NCBI GenBank assembly: GCA_007693395.1
Contig: REDS01000098.1
Location: forward strand, 1 to 51,230
DNA: 51,230 nucleotides
Direction of reading: 5' to 3'
Source of the DNA: Balneolaceae bacterium
GTDB lineage: Bacteria > Bacteroidota > Rhodothermia > Balneolales > Balneolaceae
The translations under genes and the position numbers were made by a program. Position 1 is the first letter of the stretch. Every line of letters begins with the position of its first letter. Of the stretch, positions 1 through 16,150 are shown in pieces. Below the pieces are notes generated by a model, which did no database searches, had not been told where the DNA came from, and saw nothing but the letters and a program-made list of their open reading frames with translations.

Positions 1-85
1 CAATTATTTACTAAAAGGTTCTCAATTAGCTTGAAGCCATTTTTAAATTTGGGTACCTTAGATGCCGTCAAATCAAACGATCAGA

Positions 86-607
86 ATGGAAATTTATACA
101 TTTGTACTTCTTGCAGTTTTAGCCATCGGCTCGGCCCTTGGTATGATTCTCAGCAAGAACACCGTAAATAGTGCTCTGTTACTTGTTCTAAACCTGCTTT
201 CAATTGCCGGGGTTTATCTGTTGCTGCAAGCTCAGTTTTTGGCACTCATACAGATACTTGTCTATGCCGGCGCAATCATGGTGCTGTTTTTATTTGTAAT
301 CATGCTCCTGAATATAGACCAGGAAGAGAGCTTCTTCGAAAAAGTGCGGGTAAAATATATTGTTGCCTTCCTTTTGGGAGCTGTAATTTTAGGTCAACTG
401 CTTTACAGCCTTGGAGGTGTTACCGACTTACTCCCGGAAATATCTCCCGATATGGAGTTCGTTGGTACAGTAGAGGCTCTGGGTGATGTGCTCTATACCG
501 ACTACCTCTTTGCGTTCGAAATGACGGCTATTCTTCTAACAGCTGCCGTTGTTGGAGCGTTAATGATTGCACAGTACAAGAAAAAGAAAACGGATGATTC
601 AGAATGA
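86..607 (+). CDS. nuoJ: NADH-quinone oxidoreductase subunit J (second complex I set)
   Basis: Membrane subunit J of respiratory complex I, 173 aa with about five hydrophobic segments. It lies in the arm that links the peripheral part to the antiporter-like subunits. The family pattern is clear: an early helix ending in a Ser/Lys-Asn turn, then the stretch around [20 protein letters not shown] at about residues 65-84. An ATG at 62 is in frame, but I chose the ATG at 86 because MEIYTF aligns with the start MELTTI of the other nuoJ in this window. It overlaps nuoK by 4 nt (ATGA), so the two are translationally coupled. Bases 1-61 hold no recognisable gene; the upstream subunits would lie outside the window. 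Confidence 0.93.
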
Positions 608-906
608 TAGAGATTGACTGGTATCTTGCACTTAGTGCGATAATTTTTACAATTGGTTTAATTGGTGTTCTCATCCGCAGAAATGCAATTGTCATTTTTA
701 TGTGTGTTGAGCTTATGCTAAATGCAGTAAACCTTTCTCTGGTTGCTTTTAGTGCTTATCACGGGGATGTAACAGGGCAGATTCTTGTATTCTTCTCACT
801 TGCTGTAGCTGCAGCAGAAGCTGTAATAGGTCTTGCTATTATATTGGCAATCTTCAGAAATAACCTCTCTGTTGATATTACCAAGATTAACCTGCTTCGC
901 TGGTAA
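604..906 (+). CDS. nuoK: NADH-quinone oxidoreductase subunit K (second complex I set)
   Basis: 100 aa, the usual NuoK length, with three transmembrane helices. It shows the family core [16 protein letters not shown] (residues 37-52), including the membrane Glu of helix 2, and a second buried Glu in [11 protein letters not shown], both used in proton translocation. The start codon overlaps the stop of nuoJ. No nuoL follows: the next gene is an unrelated phosphatase. A matching nuoL-M-N set appears only at 41280-46725 on the same strand, so this gene is probably the end of a broken operon segment. Confidence 0.95.
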
Positions 907-1029
907 CCGGTCTTTCATACAATGTTGTAGATTTCAGCAAGGAAAGAACATCGATATTGGTTCTTTTAAATAATATTCATGTATCTTTCACCTGCATAAA
1001 TTCGGCTACACATACAAAATAAGAGACCA

Positions 1030-2667
1030 TTGTTGACTTCCGTAAATCGGTTCTTTTTTTCTGCTTTAGGATTATTTCTTCTCTTTACTACAGAAGCAAA
1101 ATCGAATGATGATCCAAAATTTATTTTGATACATCTCGATGCAGTCTCATCAGAATATTTTTTACAGGAACTTGAGATAGGGAACTTACCAAACATGCAC
1201 TCATTTTTTGGTGATCAAGGGCGAATCGACTACACCATTACCTACTTCCCAAGCAAAACACCTACTGTAATTTCAAGTATAAGAGAAGGTGATAACCCCA
1301 TGGAATCTACACTTCCGGGTTGGAAATGGTCGAATGAATCCCGGGAAAATGTAGTAGGGATGGTGGGTAGTTTTTTGAGAATGGCTTTCAGCAAATCAAG
1401 GCTATCAACCTCCAATCTTCTGTATGGTCTGCCTGTTTTCAGCTGGATGGCAGGCCCGGCACTCATCAACACTGCTTATTATTTGAACGATTATAATATC
1501 CTCCAGTTTTACTGGTACAATGTAGATACACAAGGGCATTTTAACGGTGAAGAAGCATACCTGGAACAGCTTGCAATATTTGATAAACAGTTTGGCAGGC
1601 TGATGAGACGGCTTGATGATGATGTTAATGTGATTATCTATTCCGATCATGGAATGACATTTGGAGATGGTATAGAAATCGATCCCGTAATTGAGGATTT
1701 ACTGGGCGATGATTTGATGGTTTTCTCATACCCAACTCTATACATAAATACTCCGGGCAGAAAATCTGAATACGCCAAAAAACTGGTTGAGGAAACAGAA
1801 ATCGATTACACATTTTTTGAGCTGCAAGAGAATATTGTACAAGGTTTTCATGCCAACGGGTCTGTGCAATTCATAAAAAATTACGAGCTTGGAAAAATTC
1901 AGTACACGTATGACGGAACAGATATTTTTGGATACAGTGACCTTGGATACAATGGTGAATTTTTAAGCCGCAATGAGTGGCTTTCACTTACATATACATC
2001 GAAATATCCCATGGCACCGGTAAATATCTACTATCATTTGAATAACGAGATAGCCGGTGATATTGTAACTCTCTTTAATGATCAAAAATATCATCAGACA
2101 GGTTATAGCAGTGCAGGTAATCATGGCGGTTTTACCGACAGAGACATGACAGTTCCACTTTTAATGAAAGGGCCTGATGTAGAGCAGTTATACAACAAAA
2201 CATACTACTGGCTGCCTGATCTCTTTGTGGATATTGAAGGCGTGGATTTTGACAGAAGGCCACCGCGCGACAGGCACCAGTTTAGTTCGAGATACGATTT
2301 TCGTAACAATCGTACTGTTACCCAGTTTTCTATGTCTCCAAAATATCGGATTCAATATGGAGCTACGGCATACAGTTCAGACCTCAGCAATTTTACCGAT
2401 TTCGATCGGGTAGATGTTTGGGGGAAAGCTGATCTGTTCCGATCGTACCTTACCCGATTATGGATTGGCACAGGCATCGAAATAACCGATGAGAGTGTTG
2501 ATCCCCTGCTGATATTGCAACACGATATCCACATTCGAAAATTTGTACTGCAAAACTCATTTGCAACCAACAGGTCGTTCTATTTCAGGTTGTCGTACGA
2601 AGCTACCCCCTGGCTGGCCATCGAAAGTGTTAACTTTACATCGCTGGGTTTTCGGTTCGATTTTTAA
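1030..2667 (+). CDS. Secreted alkaline-phosphatase-superfamily protein with barrel-like C-terminus
   Basis: 545 aa. Residues 1-24 form a signal peptide. The only plausible start is TTG at 1030; the in-frame ATG at 979 runs into a stop after six codons. Residues 30-400 resemble type I phosphodiesterase/nucleotide pyrophosphatase and alkaline phosphatase enzymes. Likely metal ligands are D37 (LIHLDA), D166 and H170 (NVDTQGH), D206 and H207 (YSDHG) and H365 (AGNHGG); T77 in FPSKTPT is a candidate nucleophile. Residues from about 415 are rich in alternating aromatic and polar strands and end in GFRFDF; a terminal Phe is typical of outer-membrane beta-barrels. I infer a phosphoesterase held in or at the outer membrane. 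The substrate cannot be read from sequence. Confidence 0.75.
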   Translation: MLTSVNRFFFSALGLFLLFTTEAKSNDDPKFILIHLDAVSSEYFLQELEIGNLPNMHSFFGDQGRIDYTITYFPSKTPTVISSIREGDNPMESTLPGWKWSNESRENVVGMVGSFLRMAFSKSRLSTSNLLYGLPVFSWMAGPALINTAYYLNDYNILQFYWYNVDTQGHFNGEEAYLEQLAIFDKQFGRLMRRLDDDVNVIIYSDHGMTFGDGIEIDPVIEDLLGDDLMVFSYPTLYINTPGRKSEYAKKLVEETEIDYTFFELQENIVQGFHANGSVQFIKNYELGKIQYTYDGTDIFGYSDLGYNGEFLSRNEWLSLTYTSKYPMAPVNIYYHLNNEIAGDIVTLFNDQKYHQTGYSSAGNHGGFTDRDMTVPLLMKGPDVEQLYNKTYYWLPDLFVDIEGVDFDRRPPRDRHQFSSRYDFRNNRTVTQFSMSPKYRIQYGATAYSSDLSNFTDFDRVDVWGKADLFRSYLTRLWIGTGIEITDESVDPLLILQHDIHIRKFVLQNSFATNRSFYFRLSYEATPWLAIESVNFTSLGFRFDF

Positions 2668-2724
2668 AGAGTTAATTTCAGCACAGATCAAAATCATTAA
2701 TATTCATATTAAATAGTTGCCGCA

Positions 2725-4398
2725 GTGAGTGATCAAAAAATAATTTTCTCCATGGTTGGGGTCAGTAAAGTTTACAAACCCAACAAAACCGTTCTCAAAG
2801 ATATTTACCTCTCCTTTTTCTATGGGGCCAAGATTGGTGTTCTTGGCCTGAATGGTGCAGGGAAAAGTACTCTTTTGCGAATTATTGCCGGTGAGGACGA
2901 AGAATACATCGGTAACATTTCCCGCCAGAAGGGTATTACATTTGATTATTTGCCACAGGAACCGCAGCTTGACCCGGAAAAAACAGTATTGGAGATTGTT
3001 CAGGAAGGTGTTGCCGATACCATGAAACTGATCAAAGAGTATGAGGCCGTAAACGAAGGTTTTGCCGATCCTGATGCCAACTTTGAAGCACTCATTGCCA
3101 AACAGGCCAAACTGCAGGACGAAATTGACAGGATCGGTGCCTGGGATATCGACTCAAAATTGAACCAGGCGATGGATGCTCTTCGATGTCCGCCCGCTGA
3201 TGCAAAAATTGATGTTCTTTCAGGTGGTGAAAAACGCCGTGTTGCACTATGCAGATTGCTGCTCAAAAAGCCGGATGTATTGCTTCTTGATGAGCCGACC
3301 AACCATCTGGATGCTGAATCTGTAGGATGGCTGGAACAGCATCTTGCACGTTATGAGGGTACTGTAATAGCTGTAACTCACGATAGATATTTCCTCGATA
3401 ATGTAGCCGGCTGGATTCTTGAGCTCGATCGCGGTGAAGGTATTCCATTTAAAGGAAACTACACATCGTGGCTGGAGCAGAAGAAAGACCGCCTTGCACA
3501 GGAAGAGAAGCAGGAGTCGAAACGGCAAAAAACTCTTGAGCAGGAACTGGAATGGATTCGCCAAAATCCAAAGGGAAGGCGAGCAAAGAGTAAAGCGCGT
3601 ATTAACGCTTACGAAGAGATGCTCTCTGAAGATTACCAAAAACGCCGTGATGATATGGAGATATTCATACCAGCCGGACCGCGCCTTGGCGATAAGGTGA
3701 TTGTAGCGGAGAACGTAAACAAAGGGTATGATGAGAAACTCCTTGTTGAAAATATGAATTTCAATCTGTCGCCCGGTGGTATTGTGGGTGTGATTGGCCC
3801 GAACGGAGCCGGTAAAACTACTCTGTTCAAAATGATAACCGGGGAGGAAAACCCGGATTCCGGAAAAATAACTGTTGGCGACACTGTAGAGCTTGGTTAT
3901 GTTGATCAAAAACGACCGCTTGATCCATCCAAAACCATTTGGGAGGAGATCTCGGGCGGACAAGATATCATCAAACTTGGCAGCCGTGAAATAAACTCAA
4001 GAGCGTATGTGGCCCGATTTAATTTCAGCGGAAGTGATCAGCAGAAGAAGGTAAACGAAATATCAGGTGGTGAGCGAAACCGCGTACATCTTGCCAAAAT
4101 GCTGAAACAAGGGGCAAATGTGTTACTGCTTGATGAGCCTACAAATGATCTGGATGTAAACACACTGCGTGCACTTGAGGAAGCGATGCTGGAGTTTGCC
4201 GGATGTGTGGTCGTGATCTCGCACGACAGATGGTTCCTCGACAGAGTTGCCACGCATATTCTCGCTTTTGAGGGGAATAGTCAGGTATACTGGTTTGAAG
4301 GGAATTACCAGGAATATGAAGAGAACAGGCGCCAGCGGCTGGGAATAAAAGAGGATCAGCCTCAGCGAATTCAGTACAAAAAACTGATGCGTGATTAA
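2725..4398 (+). CDS. ettA: Energy-dependent translational throttle protein EttA (ABC-F)
   Basis: 557 aa soluble ABC-F ATPase with two nucleotide-binding domains and no membrane part. It binds the ribosomal E site and gates entry into elongation according to ATP/ADP level. Domain 1 has Walker A GLNGAGKST (residues 41-49), signature LSGGEKRR and Walker B LLLDEPTNHLD. The linker is the charged helical P-site tRNA-interaction region around residues 250-320. Domain 2 has GPNGAGKTT, ISGGERNR and LLLDEPTNDLD. The length and whole architecture match EttA rather than Uup or drug-resistance ABC-F proteins. The start is GTG (MSDQK). A hairpin follows 5 nt after the stop codon. Confidence 0.95.
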   Translation: MSDQKIIFSMVGVSKVYKPNKTVLKDIYLSFFYGAKIGVLGLNGAGKSTLLRIIAGEDEEYIGNISRQKGITFDYLPQEPQLDPEKTVLEIVQEGVADTMKLIKEYEAVNEGFADPDANFEALIAKQAKLQDEIDRIGAWDIDSKLNQAMDALRCPPADAKIDVLSGGEKRRVALCRLLLKKPDVLLLDEPTNHLDAESVGWLEQHLARYEGTVIAVTHDRYFLDNVAGWILELDRGEGIPFKGNYTSWLEQKKDRLAQEEKQESKRQKTLEQELEWIRQNPKGRRAKSKARINAYEEMLSEDYQKRRDDMEIFIPAGPRLGDKVIVAENVNKGYDEKLLVENMNFNLSPGGIVGVIGPNGAGKTTLFKMITGEENPDSGKITVGDTVELGYVDQKRPLDPSKTIWEEISGGQDIIKLGSREINSRAYVARFNFSGSDQQKKVNEISGGERNRVHLAKMLKQGANVLLLDEPTNDLDVNTLRALEEAMLEFAGCVVVISHDRWFLDRVATHILAFEGNSQVYWFEGNYQEYEENRRQRLGIKEDQPQRIQYKKLMRD

Positions 4399-4402
4399 AA
4401 GA

Positions 4403-4427
4403 AAAGCCCCGAAAATACCGGGGCTTT
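4403..4427. terminator. Bidirectional hairpin terminator between convergent genes
   Basis: A perfect 9-bp stem (AAAGCCCCG pairing with CGGGGCTTT) around a 7-nt loop lies between the stop of ettA and the stop of the minus-strand gene at 4438. On the minus strand it is followed by a T-rich run (TCTTTT), so it fits a terminator for that gene best; the plus-strand tail is less T-rich. Confidence 0.75.
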
Positions 4428-4437
4428 GATCAATTAT

Positions 4438-4689
4438 TTAGTTGGTGAGTGATTCAAGATTCTTCACAATTCTTCGGGCATCTTTATCATGACCCATTTC
4501 ATTGAGTTTAAACAGAATCATTGCAAGTGCGAAGAATGTTTGAGGCCAGAGACCGATAAATATTCCGGTTCTTTCTGCGTGTGCATTTTCATTTTCGTCA
4601 CTTCCTTTTTCAGTGTACCATGCTGCCACACTTGCAGCAATTGATGTAAATCCAAGGCCGGCAGCGATATATCCAATTTTATTTAGCAT
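4438..4689 (-). CDS. Small two-helix membrane protein, unknown function
   Basis: 83 aa. There is a hydrophobic helix at residues 5-24 (IGYIAAGLGFTSIAASVAAW), an acidic polar loop (KGSDENENAHAER), then a second helix at about 44-62 and a basic amphipathic tail. Both termini are probably cytoplasmic. I do not recognise a family. The gene stands alone between ettA and a long gene-free stretch. Real-gene status is supported by the ATG start, the balanced two-helix pattern and the hairpin terminator directly after its stop. Confidence 0.55.
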   Translation of the reverse strand: MLNKIGYIAAGLGFTSIAASVAAWYTEKGSDENENAHAERTGIFIGLWPQTFFALAMILFKLNEMGHDKDARRIVKNLESLTN

Positions 4690-5199
4690 AATATAAATAT
4701 CTGTTTATTAGTTATTTATTGATTTGATACTATTATTAACTGATCTCAAACTTTCTCCGTTCAGAACCGATCACCATACAGCATTCTGTTTGTGAATTCC
4801 TGAGTAATAGTGAGTTCATAGCCATCTCTTTTGTCACTGCACAGGCTTCCCCATAGGATTGTTAAACCTGGTCATAACTAAAATTATGTTTTATTTATTT
4901 AGCGACTCTGATAGAGTGCAATAGCTCATGTCAGAGTCGCAGATCGTTGCATCGAATTGAGATTCTTTTATTCACAACTCTGAAAGAAGCTGAGGAACAT
5001 CGTATCCGTACCTGATTCCAGAAGAGTTGCGTTTCATGAATAAAAAATTTCTTATAGAAGGATGCCTTGATAAACAGCAATAAAAAATTCAATTTTTATT
5101 TGATTTAGATATAGAAGTCAGATATCAAAAAAATTTGTTTTTTTTTTTTTTCATTTATTCCAATTAGTTCCCTATAACTTAAATCAAAATAAATACATC
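4690..5199. other. AT-rich gene-free region with a hairpin and a poly-T tract
   Basis: No convincing ORF in this 510-bp stretch between two divergent genes. It contains the inverted repeat at 4902-4940 and a run of 14 T at 5138-5151 just upstream of the Cys-rich peptide gene. It must carry the promoters of both flanking genes, but I could not identify a clear TTG/TAnnTTTG pair. No tRNA or other RNA gene was recognised. Confidence 0.5.
4902..4940. repeat. 10-bp perfect inverted repeat (stem-loop)
   Basis: GCGACTCTGA (4902-4911) and TCAGAGTCGC (4931-4940) are perfect reverse complements with a 19-nt spacer. Inside the spacer GAGT and GCTC can add a 4-bp inner stem closed with one G-U pair. The stem is GC-richer than its surroundings and no T-run follows on either strand. 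It could be a structured RNA, a protein site or a relic mobile-element end. Confidence 0.5.
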
Positions 5200-5439
5200 A
5201 TGAATAATATAAAAAAATCTGCTATTCGAGTTTTAGTAGCTGTGATGTTCCTAATCGGTGGATTAGCTTCAGGAAATATAATGAATGTAAATACATCTTC
5301 AGAATGTCCCAGAGAGGCATGTAATGATGATGACAAATGTGAGTGGTATGGTAACATGACTACTTGTTCAGATAATGGATCTTGCGATCATGGCGTTTGT
5401 AATCCTCCACCTTCTACCGATCCTGGAGTTCACCCTTAA
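5200..5439 (+). CDS. Secreted six-cysteine peptide precursor
   Basis: 79 aa. Residues 1-25 are a basic start followed by a hydrophobic core (signal peptide, cleavage near ASG). The remaining peptide of about 50 aa has six cysteines (36, 41, 47, 56, 62, 67), many Asp/Asn and a Pro-rich tail, which suggests three disulfides outside the cytoplasm. The layout of signal peptide plus short Cys-rich peptide followed directly by a propeller lipoprotein is like the NVEALA-type peptide loci of Bacteroidota. The NVEALA motif itself is not clear here, so that family is only a resemblance. The downstream lipoprotein gene starts 2 nt after the stop. Base composition is markedly AT-richer than in the surrounding housekeeping genes. 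Confidence 0.65.
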   Translation: MNNIKKSAIRVLVAVMFLIGGLASGNIMNVNTSSECPREACNDDDKCEWYGNMTTCSDNGSCDHGVCNPPPSTDPGVHP

Positions 5440-5441
5440 GA

Positions 5442-6644
5442 ATGGATAATAGTACTGATAGAATATTAACTTTAATATTTATAGTCTGCTCACTCCTGCT
5501 ACAAGTTTCTTGTTCATCAGAACAAGAGTCAGCTGGCAGGAGTGTGGAGCATCCTATTGATGAATTGATTCCATATATAGATGTAGAACAAATAGTTATT
5601 GATCGTGATTTTTCATTTGAGTTAATCGATGAGCCAAGTAAAATTTTGGTATTGTTACATTACTACTTAAATGATCGAAGTAAAATTGAACTTGAGCCAT
5701 TAACCTTAAAAATAGGAGATATTTCAAACTTAAAAGTTGAAAAATTGAGTAATGGGCGGTTGCTTATTTTAGACACCTCCAGAGATACTTTATTTGAATA
5801 TGATATAGCAGATCATAGTTACGAAATTGTTGCTGATTTTGGCAGAGGGCCTGGAGAGTTACAGCATTCAATGGATCTAACTGTTGCTGGTGACACAGTT
5901 TTCGTGGCAAGGAGAGACATGAGGTTGTCCAGATTCATCTGTAGTGCATCGTGTAAATATGATCGTACAGCAGTTTTAGACGTTCAGCCATTGTCTATTA
6001 TTACTACAAATTCTGGATTAGCTGTGTCCACTGGATTGCTATTTGGACTTGAAGATCTTTATTCAGACTCTGGCATTGAATTTTCTGCTATAAATATTTT
6101 CGATGTTGACAGTGAACAAATACTGTATTCATTTGGTGAGGTTTACAACTCGAATTATATACAGGTTTTAGAGAGATTTGCTCGTACAGGAATGGTGGCC
6201 TTTCTTCCGGGCAATAATAATTATATATGGGCGAGTAGTTGGTTCCCATACATATACCTTTACGATGAAAATTTTGAAATTGATAAAGTCTATAAACTCG
6301 ATCATCATATTCAAAATAAGTTTACATTTTTCCCAACCGAACAACGTCTAAGTTTTCCTGGAATGGATCGTACTTTAATCAATACAATAAAACCAATTGG
6401 GGAAGAAAAGTTATTACTTGTTACTGACACACGTACTAAAGACCAACAGTTGGAAGTAGATACCAATTATAGTATTGATTATTATCTTATTGATCACTTA
6501 AATCGTGAGAGTTTCCATATAGGGAGTGATCAGTTTACCTCAAATGATCAAAAATTGGTATATATAACTGATGATGAATTAATACTTAATAAGAATGGTG
6601 ATCTGTTTCGAATAGTGAATTTAAATAATATTGAAATTTTTTAA
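5442..6644 (+). CDS. Six-bladed beta-propeller lipoprotein
   Basis: 400 aa. The N-terminal hydrophobic segment ends in SLLLQVSC, so Cys24 is a likely lipidated residue, although Gln at -3 is not the ideal lipobox. The rest is beta-rich and resembles the Bacteroidota 6-bladed propeller lipoproteins. Its FGRGPGEL (133-140) is the family-typical Gly-Pro-Gly-Glu turn after the first blades. A CSASC pair lies at 167-171. Such proteins bind ligands or peptides at the envelope; no enzyme motif is visible. It follows the Cys-rich peptide gene with a 2-nt gap and overlaps the next gene by 14 nt, so the three form one transcription unit. AT-rich codon use suggests acquisition. Confidence 0.72.
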   Translation: MDNSTDRILTLIFIVCSLLLQVSCSSEQESAGRSVEHPIDELIPYIDVEQIVIDRDFSFELIDEPSKILVLLHYYLNDRSKIELEPLTLKIGDISNLKVEKLSNGRLLILDTSRDTLFEYDIADHSYEIVADFGRGPGELQHSMDLTVAGDTVFVARRDMRLSRFICSASCKYDRTAVLDVQPLSIITTNSGLAVSTGLLFGLEDLYSDSGIEFSAINIFDVDSEQILYSFGEVYNSNYIQVLERFARTGMVAFLPGNNNYIWASSWFPYIYLYDENFEIDKVYKLDHHIQNKFTFFPTEQRLSFPGMDRTLINTIKPIGEEKLLLVTDTRTKDQQLEVDTNYSIDYYLIDHLNRESFHIGSDQFTSNDQKLVYITDDELILNKNGDLFRIVNLNNIEIF

Positions 6645-7254
6645 TGTGCAATACATAAAGAATATATATGCTGTTCTAATCCTTCTTCTGCTTTTGACTA
6701 TAGGATTTCTAATTAATTATGAGAAACAGAAGTTTATTGATTATAAATCGAATATTAATCCCGACGGCGGCAATTATATCAAACTTACATATATAGGATC
6801 TTCACATTGTTATTTTTCAAAGAACATTGAGAATAATAGAAATGTGATAAAAATAAAGCAGCAGGTAAAAGAGCTGGCAATTATTAATGACTATAAATTC
6901 ATCTCGAGTGGCATTTCCGTAGATTTTAATGCATATCAAGGAATAAAATTTTTAGAAAAGACCGGGCCTTATGATGAAATAATAGTTGGTAATAATTGGT
7001 TCAATGAAGGTGTTTTTAAATATGTTTGGGATGGTTTTCAAGGTCGTCCAGCTACACCTCAAATTATTATTTCAAATGTTACGTATGAGGTCGAAGTTTA
7101 CCATGGAATTAAAAAATCAGAAACGGTTTTAAAGAGGTTTAATGGAGGCACTGAGATTAAAAATTTTCTCCAAGTTTTAAAAGAAAATCAGGAAACGGGA
7201 TCAGCTAAATTAGATATCTTGAATATTATGAAAAAAGTAGGAGAAGATTCTTAA
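6631..7254 (+). CDS. Membrane-anchored thioredoxin-fold-like protein with a CxxS motif
   Basis: 207 aa, TTG start inside the end of the propeller gene; no in-frame ATG exists before the hydrophobic segment. One transmembrane anchor (about residues 12-29) is followed by an extracytoplasmic domain. TYIGSSHCYFS (53-63) sits where the active-site loop of thioredoxin folds lies, with Cys60 and Ser63 forming a monothiol CxxS. ATPQIII (141-147) resembles the cis-proline loop, and the last helix follows a Gly-Gly turn (GGTEIKNFL). It is therefore possibly a thiol-binding or chaperone-like partner of the Cys-rich peptide. The family assignment is mine by motif and is uncertain. Low GC like its two neighbours. 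Confidence 0.55.
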   Translation: MKFFNVQYIKNIYAVLILLLLLTIGFLINYEKQKFIDYKSNINPDGGNYIKLTYIGSSHCYFSKNIENNRNVIKIKQQVKELAIINDYKFISSGISVDFNAYQGIKFLEKTGPYDEIIVGNNWFNEGVFKYVWDGFQGRPATPQIIISNVTYEVEVYHGIKKSETVLKRFNGGTEIKNFLQVLKENQETGSAKLDILNIMKKVGEDS

Positions 7255-7312
7255 AGAATTGAATATGTTATTTTTATTTGACTAATAATTTATTAAGTGG
7301 TAAAAATAAATT

Positions 7313-7341
7313 TTGAGGATCATTTTTTACTTATAGATTTG
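7313..7341 (+). promoter_or_regulatory. Bacteroidota-type promoter for the YgjP-like gene
   Basis: TTG (7313-7315, preceded by TT), 18-nt spacer, then TAGATTTG (7334-7341), a perfect TAnnTTTG -7 element. It lies 65 nt before the ATG at 7406 and would give a short leader. Confidence 0.6.
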
Positions 7342-7405
7342 GCTTTAACATTTGTACTAATGTAAATAGGTAGAATACAGATAAACTTGTATTTTTATCT
7401 GCAGT

Positions 7406-8092
7406 ATGAAACAGAGCTTCACCATTTCCGGAATTACGATTGATGTGACACGAAAGAATGTCAAAAACCTCAATCTTCGTGTCTATCCATCGGATGGGAG
7501 GGTTACAATCAGTTGTCCGAGAATGCTGTCGTACAAGAAAATTCTCAGGTTTACTGAAGAGAGAATTCCCTGGATTAAAAAACATCTGCAAAGGCCAAAG
7601 CCCAAATCATCTGCTAAACTTGATTATGTGACAGGAGAGATGGTATCCGTTTGGGGTGACAGATTGAAGCTGACAGTATTTGAAGCCAATAAACCCAGAG
7701 AAGTACTTGCTGAGAACGCCGGCGGTATTCATCTCAGAGTGAAACCGGGCGATGACAGGGAGAAACGTAAAAAGCTTTTGGAGAGCTGGTATCGGGCTGA
7801 ATTAAAAAGGGAAATTCCTCAGCTCATATCAGAGTGGGAACCGCGAATGGAAGTATCTGTATGTGAGTTTGGCGTAAAAAAGATGAAAACACGATGGGGC
7901 ACCTGTAATATTCGAGACAGACGAGTCTGGATAAACCTTGAGCTTGCCAAAAAACATCCGGATTGTCTTGAATTTATTGTTGTGCACGAAATGGTTCATC
8001 TGCTTGAACGGCTGCACAGCAAGCGGTTTTATCGTCTGATGGATCAGTTTCTGCCGGACTGGAGAGAACGCGAAAAGCTGCTTATCACTTAA
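7406..8092 (+). CDS. YgjP/SprT-like zinc metallopeptidase (DUF45, M48-like)
   Basis: 228 aa cytoplasmic protein. The C-terminal half carries the family pattern TRWGTCN (162-168), then the zinc motif HEMVH (194-198) with Glu195 as catalytic base, and His204 six residues later as likely third ligand. The N-terminal half is the beta-rich domain typical of this family, with length as usual (220-240 aa). Some family members are linked to restriction-modification loci, but none is present here, so its substrate is unknown. It has its own promoter and is convergent with gnd, overlapping its 3' end by 8 nt. Confidence 0.88.
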   Translation: MKQSFTISGITIDVTRKNVKNLNLRVYPSDGRVTISCPRMLSYKKILRFTEERIPWIKKHLQRPKPKSSAKLDYVTGEMVSVWGDRLKLTVFEANKPREVLAENAGGIHLRVKPGDDREKRKKLLESWYRAELKREIPQLISEWEPRMEVSVCEFGVKKMKTRWGTCNIRDRRVWINLELAKKHPDCLEFIVVHEMVHLLERLHSKRFYRLMDQFLPDWREREKLLIT

Positions 8093-15634: not shown

Positions 15635-16150
15635 ATGGAACTGACAACCATTTTATTCTACCTCTTCGCACTGGTTACCCTCGGGTCAGCCGCTATTATG
15701 GTGTTCTCCAAAAATATTGTCCATTCTGCATTTGCCCTGATGTTTACGCTAATGGGTGTTGCAGCACTCTATGTGCTGCTCTATGCTGATTTTCTCGCCG
15801 CTACCCAGTTGTTGGTGTACGTAGGCGGCATTTTAATTTTAATACTCTTCGGCGTGATGCTTACATCGCAGGGATACACACTCAGTTTTAAAACCATTAC
15901 GGTAAATCTTATTCCGGCATCGCTCATTTCAGTTGGTATAGCCGCACTGCTGATTTTTGCATTTTTAACAACAAACTGGACCATCAGCGAAGTAGCTGAG
16001 CGTACGGATACTGTGTATGATCTGGGAATGCTGCTGATGGGAGATTATATCCTGCCATTTATCGCAGTTGGAGTACTTCTTCTAATTGCAATAATCGGTG
16101 CCATTTTAATGTCAACACGGCTTTCTGCCGACAATGAGGGAGCAAGCTGA
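15635..16150 (+). CDS. nuoJ: NADH-quinone oxidoreductase subunit J
   Basis: 171 aa, five hydrophobic helices. The family core is at residues about 55-75 (ATQLLVYVGGILILILFGVML). ATG 3 nt after nuoI. It is paralogous to the nuoJ at 86-607: the same ME-start and the same helix pattern, but clearly diverged, which supports two different complex I sets in one genome. Confidence 0.95.
   Translation: MELTTILFYLFALVTLGSAAIMVFSKNIVHSAFALMFTLMGVAALYVLLYADFLAATQLLVYVGGILILILFGVMLTSQGYTLSFKTITVNLIPASLISVGIAALLIFAFLTTNWTISEVAERTDTVYDLGMLLMGDYILPFIAVGVLLLIAIIGAILMSTRLSADNEGAS

Follow-up and report, generated by a model that had tools for sequence, protein, structure and literature searches.

A three-gene cassette in a Balneolaceae contig

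We analyzed a stretch of 51,230 nucleotides from a Balneolaceae bacterium (contig REDS01000098.1, positions 1 to 51,230), hereafter called the window, and focused on three genes that lie on its plus strand in the order secreted peptide, propeller lipoprotein and membrane-anchored thioredoxin-fold protein. First, a secreted six-cysteine peptide precursor of 79 amino acids is encoded at 5200–5439; it was recognized as an open reading frame (ORF) whose homologues precede a propeller gene across the class. Second, the ORF at 5442–6644 encodes a propeller lipoprotein of 400 amino acids, assigned from the Pfam matches of its homologues and a predicted all-beta fold. Third, an ORF read from a TTG codon (6631–7254) encodes the putative thioredoxin-fold protein with an N-terminal membrane helix, assigned from a structural model and an alignment. 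The first two genes are 2 nt apart, and with the TTG at 6631 as start codon the third ORF overlaps the propeller gene by 14 nt. Translation from a GTG at 6646 would abolish the overlap, and the start position is uncertain. This tight spacing, together with the six cysteines and the motifs FGRGPGEL, C60-Y-F-S63 and TPQ, had been reported in a preliminary description of the same DNA, and the ORFs confirm all of it.

The trio has a GC content of about 0.30, and the whole region of 4.5–7.5 kb stays at 0.29–0.34, whereas the flanks reach 0.41–0.49. None of the three window proteins matched a family in Pfam or NCBIfam. The search for known RNA elements within 4600–7500 gave only sub-threshold snoRNA-type matches, which we judged to be chance. 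A second full trio (L002) is present in the same genome on another contig, C157, with the peptide at 633–878 and the thioredoxin-like gene at 2197–2808 on either side of the propeller gene. Contig C129 of this genome has a related locus (L059), in which a six-cysteine peptide is found with two tandem propellers and without a thioredoxin-like gene. Elsewhere in the window, NuoJ-like and NuoK-like genes occupy the left edge (62–906), and a second NuoJ-like gene (15635–16150) lies inside the run of complex I genes that extends from 11314 onward.

Features of the thioredoxin-fold protein

The third protein has one N-terminal hydrophobic helix, predicted at residues 3–35. Its C60-Y-F-S63 motif places Cys60 at 6808–6810 and Ser63 at 6817–6819, and the loop T142-P143-Q144 carries the candidate cis-proline, Pro143, at 7057–7059. 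AlphaFold2, applied to the window protein and four relatives, gave a model with a pLDDT of 77 and the helix-strand order of the thioredoxin type. The top matches of this model were almost all thioredoxin-fold proteins by both structural searches: Foldseek returned ResA, TlpA-like and SCO-type proteins, while VIA-align returned tryparedoxin, CcmG and TlpA-like proteins, with Z up to 8.9 and an rmsd of 3.0 A over 120 residues. In the model Cys60 opens the helix that follows a strand, and Pro143 just precedes a strand, as is canonical. The protein is thus predicted to have a thioredoxin fold with both the attacking cysteine and the cis-proline in their canonical places, in agreement with the preliminary description, which had called it thioredoxin-like and left the fold to structure prediction. 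The sequence search of the PDB with the family profile gave only apparently spurious matches.

Both residues are nearly invariant among the aligned homologues, Cys60 being kept in 86 of 87 and Pro143 in all 84. The fourth position of the motif varies. Among 68 cassette members it is serine in 41, alanine in 13 and cysteine in 14, and among the 18 genes without an adjacent upstream propeller it is serine in 6, alanine in 1 and cysteine in 11. Serine or alanine therefore replaces the resolving cysteine in 54/68 cassette members versus 7/18 of the other genes (Fisher p = 0.002), the latter group including genes truncated at contig ends and others whose propeller lies on the opposite side. Cassette membership is thus linked to a tendency to lose the resolving cysteine, which is not a fixed trait, and since the fourth residue varies among cassette members, CxxS is typical of the family without defining it. 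The monothiol character proposed from the window sequence stands as the commonest form, and it does not extend to the CxxC members.

The six-cysteine peptides

In the window peptide the cysteines are residues 36, 41, 47, 56, 62 and 67 (spacing 4, 5, 8, 5 and 4), and all six lie downstream of a single hydrophobic signal segment. The family shares the frame C-x4-C ... C ... C ... C-x4-C; the alignment is conserved only at the cysteines and one glycine, and the variation lies outside the cysteine frame. Five pairs of homologous peptides gave dN/dS values of about 0.18–0.51, which indicates purifying selection, and therefore we regard this small ORF as a real gene.

We searched the loci automatically for a strict motif, namely a signal-like segment followed by C-x4-C-xn-C-xn-C-xn-C-x3..6-C. 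The 111 kb immediately preceding the propellers contained 49 matches, spread over 43 of 69 loci, versus 4 in the 958 kb elsewhere in the same loci (both strands), a density about 100-fold lower. Three of these four background matches are further peptides of the same clusters. Peptides with looser spacing were recognized by eye in L002, L034, L035, L037, L038, L039, L042, L047, L054, L127, L137 and other loci, and L040, L052, L056 and L106 contain two or three tandem, divergent six-cysteine peptide genes ahead of one propeller. A search of PDB sequences with the peptide profile gave only apparently spurious matches. We also considered an EGF-like fold and rejected it, as the only match (PF23105, E 0.03) was below threshold and the cysteine spacing differs.

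The propeller lipoproteins

The window propeller has a lipobox-type cysteine, Cys24, at 5511–5513, and its FGRGPGEL motif comprises residues 133–140 (5838–5861). His37 and Pro38 are invariant in the family alignment. Of 20 aligned homologues, 12 match the six-bladed propeller family DUF5128 (PF17170; best E-value 4.8e-16) and 4 match TolB_like, and the window protein itself reached no Pfam model, PF17170 included. Its structural model is nearly all strand, with moderate confidence (pLDDT 68), and the top PDB matches are propellers of the NHL and WD types together with proteins from Bacteroides, among them a DUF4221 protein (3s9j), BF0058 (4raa) and the surface lipoprotein BtuG.

Linkage and distribution of the cassette

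Among 244 genomes of the class, which is presumably Rhodothermia by GTDB naming, the profile search detected the thioredoxin-like family in 53, and a single genome can hold as many as about 8 copies. It occurs in 18 of 92 genomes of Balneolaceae and in 7 of 28 genomes of the genus. One of the genomes that carry it (G010) appears to be Fodinibius halophilus (NZ_JAALLS010000005.1). In an even sample of 395 genomes across the phylum, 27 had the family, and apart from one they belong to this class; the exception (G305) encodes a CGPC protein with no propeller beside its gene.

We scored every ORF in stretches of several kb surrounding the thioredoxin-like genes with the propeller and thioredoxin-like profiles. 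A propeller gene lies directly upstream, on the same strand, of 71 of the 92 thioredoxin-like ORFs (profile E below 1e-12, halves of frameshifted genes being counted separately), and among the remaining ORFs several are truncated at the end of a contig or represent the second half of a gene split by a frameshift. Conversely, when the best-scoring propellers of 11 genomes were taken as the starting point, 21 of the 28 loci returned had a thioredoxin-like gene next to the propeller. The preliminary description had proposed searching related genomes for the triplet, and these counts, along with the enrichment of peptides upstream of propellers, establish co-occurrence in a conserved order, which is seen in dozens of other genomes. 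Neither of the two outcomes that the description had named as refuting, unlinked homologues or a third protein of another fold, was therefore observed. Beyond the trio the neighbours are not common to the loci: among 463 flanking ORFs no family was found in more than 6 of 89 loci. One subgroup of cassettes has an AraC-type helix-turn-helix gene upstream of the peptide (112–453 in L002 and 4614–4955 in L035); the L002 gene matches PF12833 weakly and is a possible regulator.

The distances among the three proteins correlate, with r = 0.84 for thioredoxin-like protein and propeller, 0.50 for peptide and propeller, and 0.53 for peptide and thioredoxin-like protein, which suggests that the trio travels as a unit; such correlation is also expected from mere co-inheritance.

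Mobility and insertion site

Comparison with two sister species revealed the site without the cassette. G064, the closest of the relatives searched, is collinear with the window over 1–4808 (93% DNA identity) and again from 7421 (87%), with 34 bp between the blocks. In G058, a more distant relative, the site is likewise empty (76% and 70% identity), with about 61 bp between the blocks, versus about 2.6 kb in the window. The cassette was therefore inserted or, less simply, lost twice, and the inserted segment has approximate boundaries at 4809 and 7420 (no strand assigned). Moreover, 59 of 67 cassettes have a higher AT content than the DNA around them, the median difference being 7 points. Mobility had been suspected from the codon use of the window genes, and both observations uphold it. 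At the insertion ends in the window we found no terminal repeat and no target duplication, and tblastn found no plasmid-borne homologues.

The left edge of the inserted segment contains a palindromic dispersed repeat of about 100 bp (4892–4993, no strand assigned), GCGACTCTGA...TCAGAGTCGC, which has copies of 75–78% identity in G067 (L248 and L253) and G061 (L249). By eye, these copies adjoin unrelated genes, namely ftsZ/ftsA-like, purF-like and LacI-type regulator genes. The genome of the window has one weak match besides the window copy, and the element is REP-like.

Taken together, the cassette is real, conserved and mobile, and it is best explained as an accessory envelope operon.

Relation to NVEALA loci and other known systems

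The closest known relatives of the cassette are the NVEALA loci of Bacteroidales. We examined them mainly in G423, whose order was taken from its NVEALA genes, and in other members of its family. The arrangement that characterizes them, in which the gene for a secreted peptide adjoins that for a propeller lipoprotein, is found in the window (5200–6644) and in dozens of our loci. In G423 the NVEALA genes adjoin DUF5128, TolB_like or DUF4221 propeller lipoproteins, and the propeller profile of the class recognizes some of these propellers (E down to 8e-10). Unexpectedly, one G423 NVEALA locus also encodes a thiol lipoprotein (YIDSTGCTSC). In related genomes this Bacteroidales thiol lipoprotein (YVDSxxCxxC) has 15 intact homologues, of which 13 have an NVEALA peptide, a propeller lipoprotein or both as neighbours, and in L260, L261, L270 and L276 the order is again peptide, propeller and thiol protein. 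The NVEALA loci from the family of G423 (L257–L276) usually contain the YVDSxxCxxC lipoprotein. The one such lipoprotein that was scanned, P0001, has no Pfam match, and its locus, L177, contains in addition a gene resembling signal peptidase I.

Both kinds of loci occur in multiple copies and combine a small secreted peptide, often containing cysteines, with an adjacent propeller lipoprotein and, usually, a thiol protein. The differences are also clear. The cassette peptides lack the NVEALA motif and have the six-cysteine frame, and the cassette thiol protein is anchored by a membrane helix and usually has CxxS/A. One NVEALA locus has a signal peptidase (PF10502), which was not seen in the cassettes. 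The PF14055 profile matched neither the window peptide nor 21 homologues at E 0.1, nor anything in the genome of the window, so that by this profile the peptides fall outside the NVEALA family. A degenerate [AVI][ED]A precedes the first cysteine in 9 of 49 homologues versus 2.4 expected, and it is absent from the window peptide. For the thiol proteins, hhalign gave a probability under 2% between the cassette and YVDSxxCxxC families, and homology is not demonstrable. The resemblance to NVEALA loci without an NVEALA motif, as first noticed, is supported and takes in a propeller and, in the NVEALA loci, a thiol lipoprotein of a different type (CxxC). The cassette had also been thought undescribed. 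This holds for its protein families, and the papers searched mention neither NVEALA nor DUF5128 and gave nothing on the system via these names, cysteine-rich peptides of Balneolaceae/Rhodothermia or MauD; it does not hold for peptide-propeller pairs, which are already annotated, unexplained, in NVEALA loci. The cassette consists of new protein families arranged as a variant of the peptide-propeller architecture, which is itself only loosely known.

The third protein also resembles members of the TlpA/ResA/CcmG and tryparedoxin types in its predicted thioredoxin fold, in the attacking cysteine that opens the first long helix and in the cis-proline. ResA and CcmG are membrane-anchored, as the cassette protein appears to be. 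Unlike them, it has no significant Pfam or NCBIfam match, and unlike dithiol oxidoreductases of the TlpA/ResA type, it has no CxxC, a feature mirrored by the serine or alanine of most cassette homologues. The proteins of the AGR2/ERp44 type offer a functional analogy (PMC10907643, PMC12384036), being thioredoxin-fold CxxS proteins tied to the folding of cysteine-rich secreted clients. They are eukaryotic, the likeness to them would be one of function, and the peptide is a presumed client of the cassette protein. The cassette protein is a possible bacterial counterpart of such dedicated CxxS folding factors.

Proposed function and alternatives

The reading that we favour, with about an even chance of being right, is that the thioredoxin-fold protein folds or proof-reads the disulfides of the peptide and that the propeller binds and displays it. 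The peptide would be exported by Sec, and its six-cysteine core would form three disulfides outside the cytoplasm. The thioredoxin-fold protein, held in the inner membrane by its single N-terminal helix, would face the periplasm and form mixed disulfides with the peptide, as a peptide isomerase, chaperone or quality-control retainer rather than a general reductase. Mixed disulfides are the expected chemistry of a thioredoxin-fold protein with only the attacking cysteine, and we assign this role because the attacking cysteine and cis-proline are kept while the resolving cysteine is usually missing. The peptide is the presumed client because the operon has no other obvious partner with multiple cysteines. 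The propeller lipoprotein would then bind the folded peptide and hold or display it at the cell envelope; it might instead bind something other than the peptide. Two observations narrow the proposal. The cassette members with CxxC mean that a retaining role cannot hold for all, and peptide-propeller loci such as that on contig C129 indicate that the thioredoxin-like gene can sometimes be dispensed with; in such loci its place could be taken by general Dsb enzymes.

Since the NVEALA loci also combine a propeller with a thiol protein, the peptide-propeller-thiol architecture appears to exist in at least two branches, one of them shown by the window. A wider view, plausible if somewhat short of probable, is that widespread undescribed systems of the Bacteroidota group pair a multi-cysteine peptide with its own propeller receptor or carrier and a dedicated thioredoxin-fold maturation factor, this class having the mobile, multi-copy CxxS/A version and NVEALA being another branch. 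With the cassette, peptide-propeller loci acquire a third component whose single reactive cysteine sets a clear chemical expectation. A cassette (L060) appears to be carried by a named, isolated strain, Fodinibius halophilus 2W32, and the cassette-free close relatives of the window genome are natural controls. This makes it possible to test directly what the secreted peptides, a large and unexplained class, do.

Four other explanations were weighed. The peptide may be a secreted antagonistic or signalling agent that acts on other cells, with the propeller and the thioredoxin-like protein as immunity, receptor or release factors. Patchiness, multiple copies and tandem divergence are the usual marks of cell-cell interaction genes, and the cassette has all of them: the family is found in only 7 of the 28 genus genomes, the insertion is clean, a genome may hold about 8 copies, and some loci have two or three tandem peptides that vary outside the cysteine frame. 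However, the flanks share no export ABC transporter or peptidase, the peptides match no Pfam toxin family, PADLOC matched no known defence system, and the five peptide pairs are under purifying and not diversifying selection, so that we consider this explanation rather unlikely.

The trio could instead be an NVEALA-type subgroup with a general role such as envelope redox or nutrient sensing, in which the propeller would read the peptide as a periplasmic reporter of redox state. The three roles shared with the NVEALA loci of G423 and its relatives (peptide, DUF5128/TolB_like propeller lipoprotein and thiol lipoprotein) and the cross-recognition of their propellers by our profile (E down to 8e-10) point this way, but the class peptides have no PF14055 match above the cut-off, and the two thiol-protein families gave no significant profile match to each other. 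We give it, too, a small chance.

Far less probable is an enzyme of the methylamine dehydrogenase kind, in which the peptide would join the propeller as a small subunit with a catalytic or structural role. The mau operon encodes a propeller large subunit, a cysteine-rich small subunit and a thioredoxin-like maturation protein (MauD), that is, the same three kinds of genes, and the correlated distances of propeller and peptide would suit such a complex. Unlike the small subunit of methylamine dehydrogenase, whose conserved tryptophan pair forms the quinone cofactor, the aligned peptides have no conserved tryptophan, tryptophylquinone residue or other candidate cofactor residue, and the cassettes have no recurrent MauE, MauG or radical-SAM neighbour. 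Finally, the idea that three unrelated AT-rich genes adjoin by chance, which only the shared base composition favours, can practically be dismissed, being refuted by the conserved order and the linkage counts across the class.
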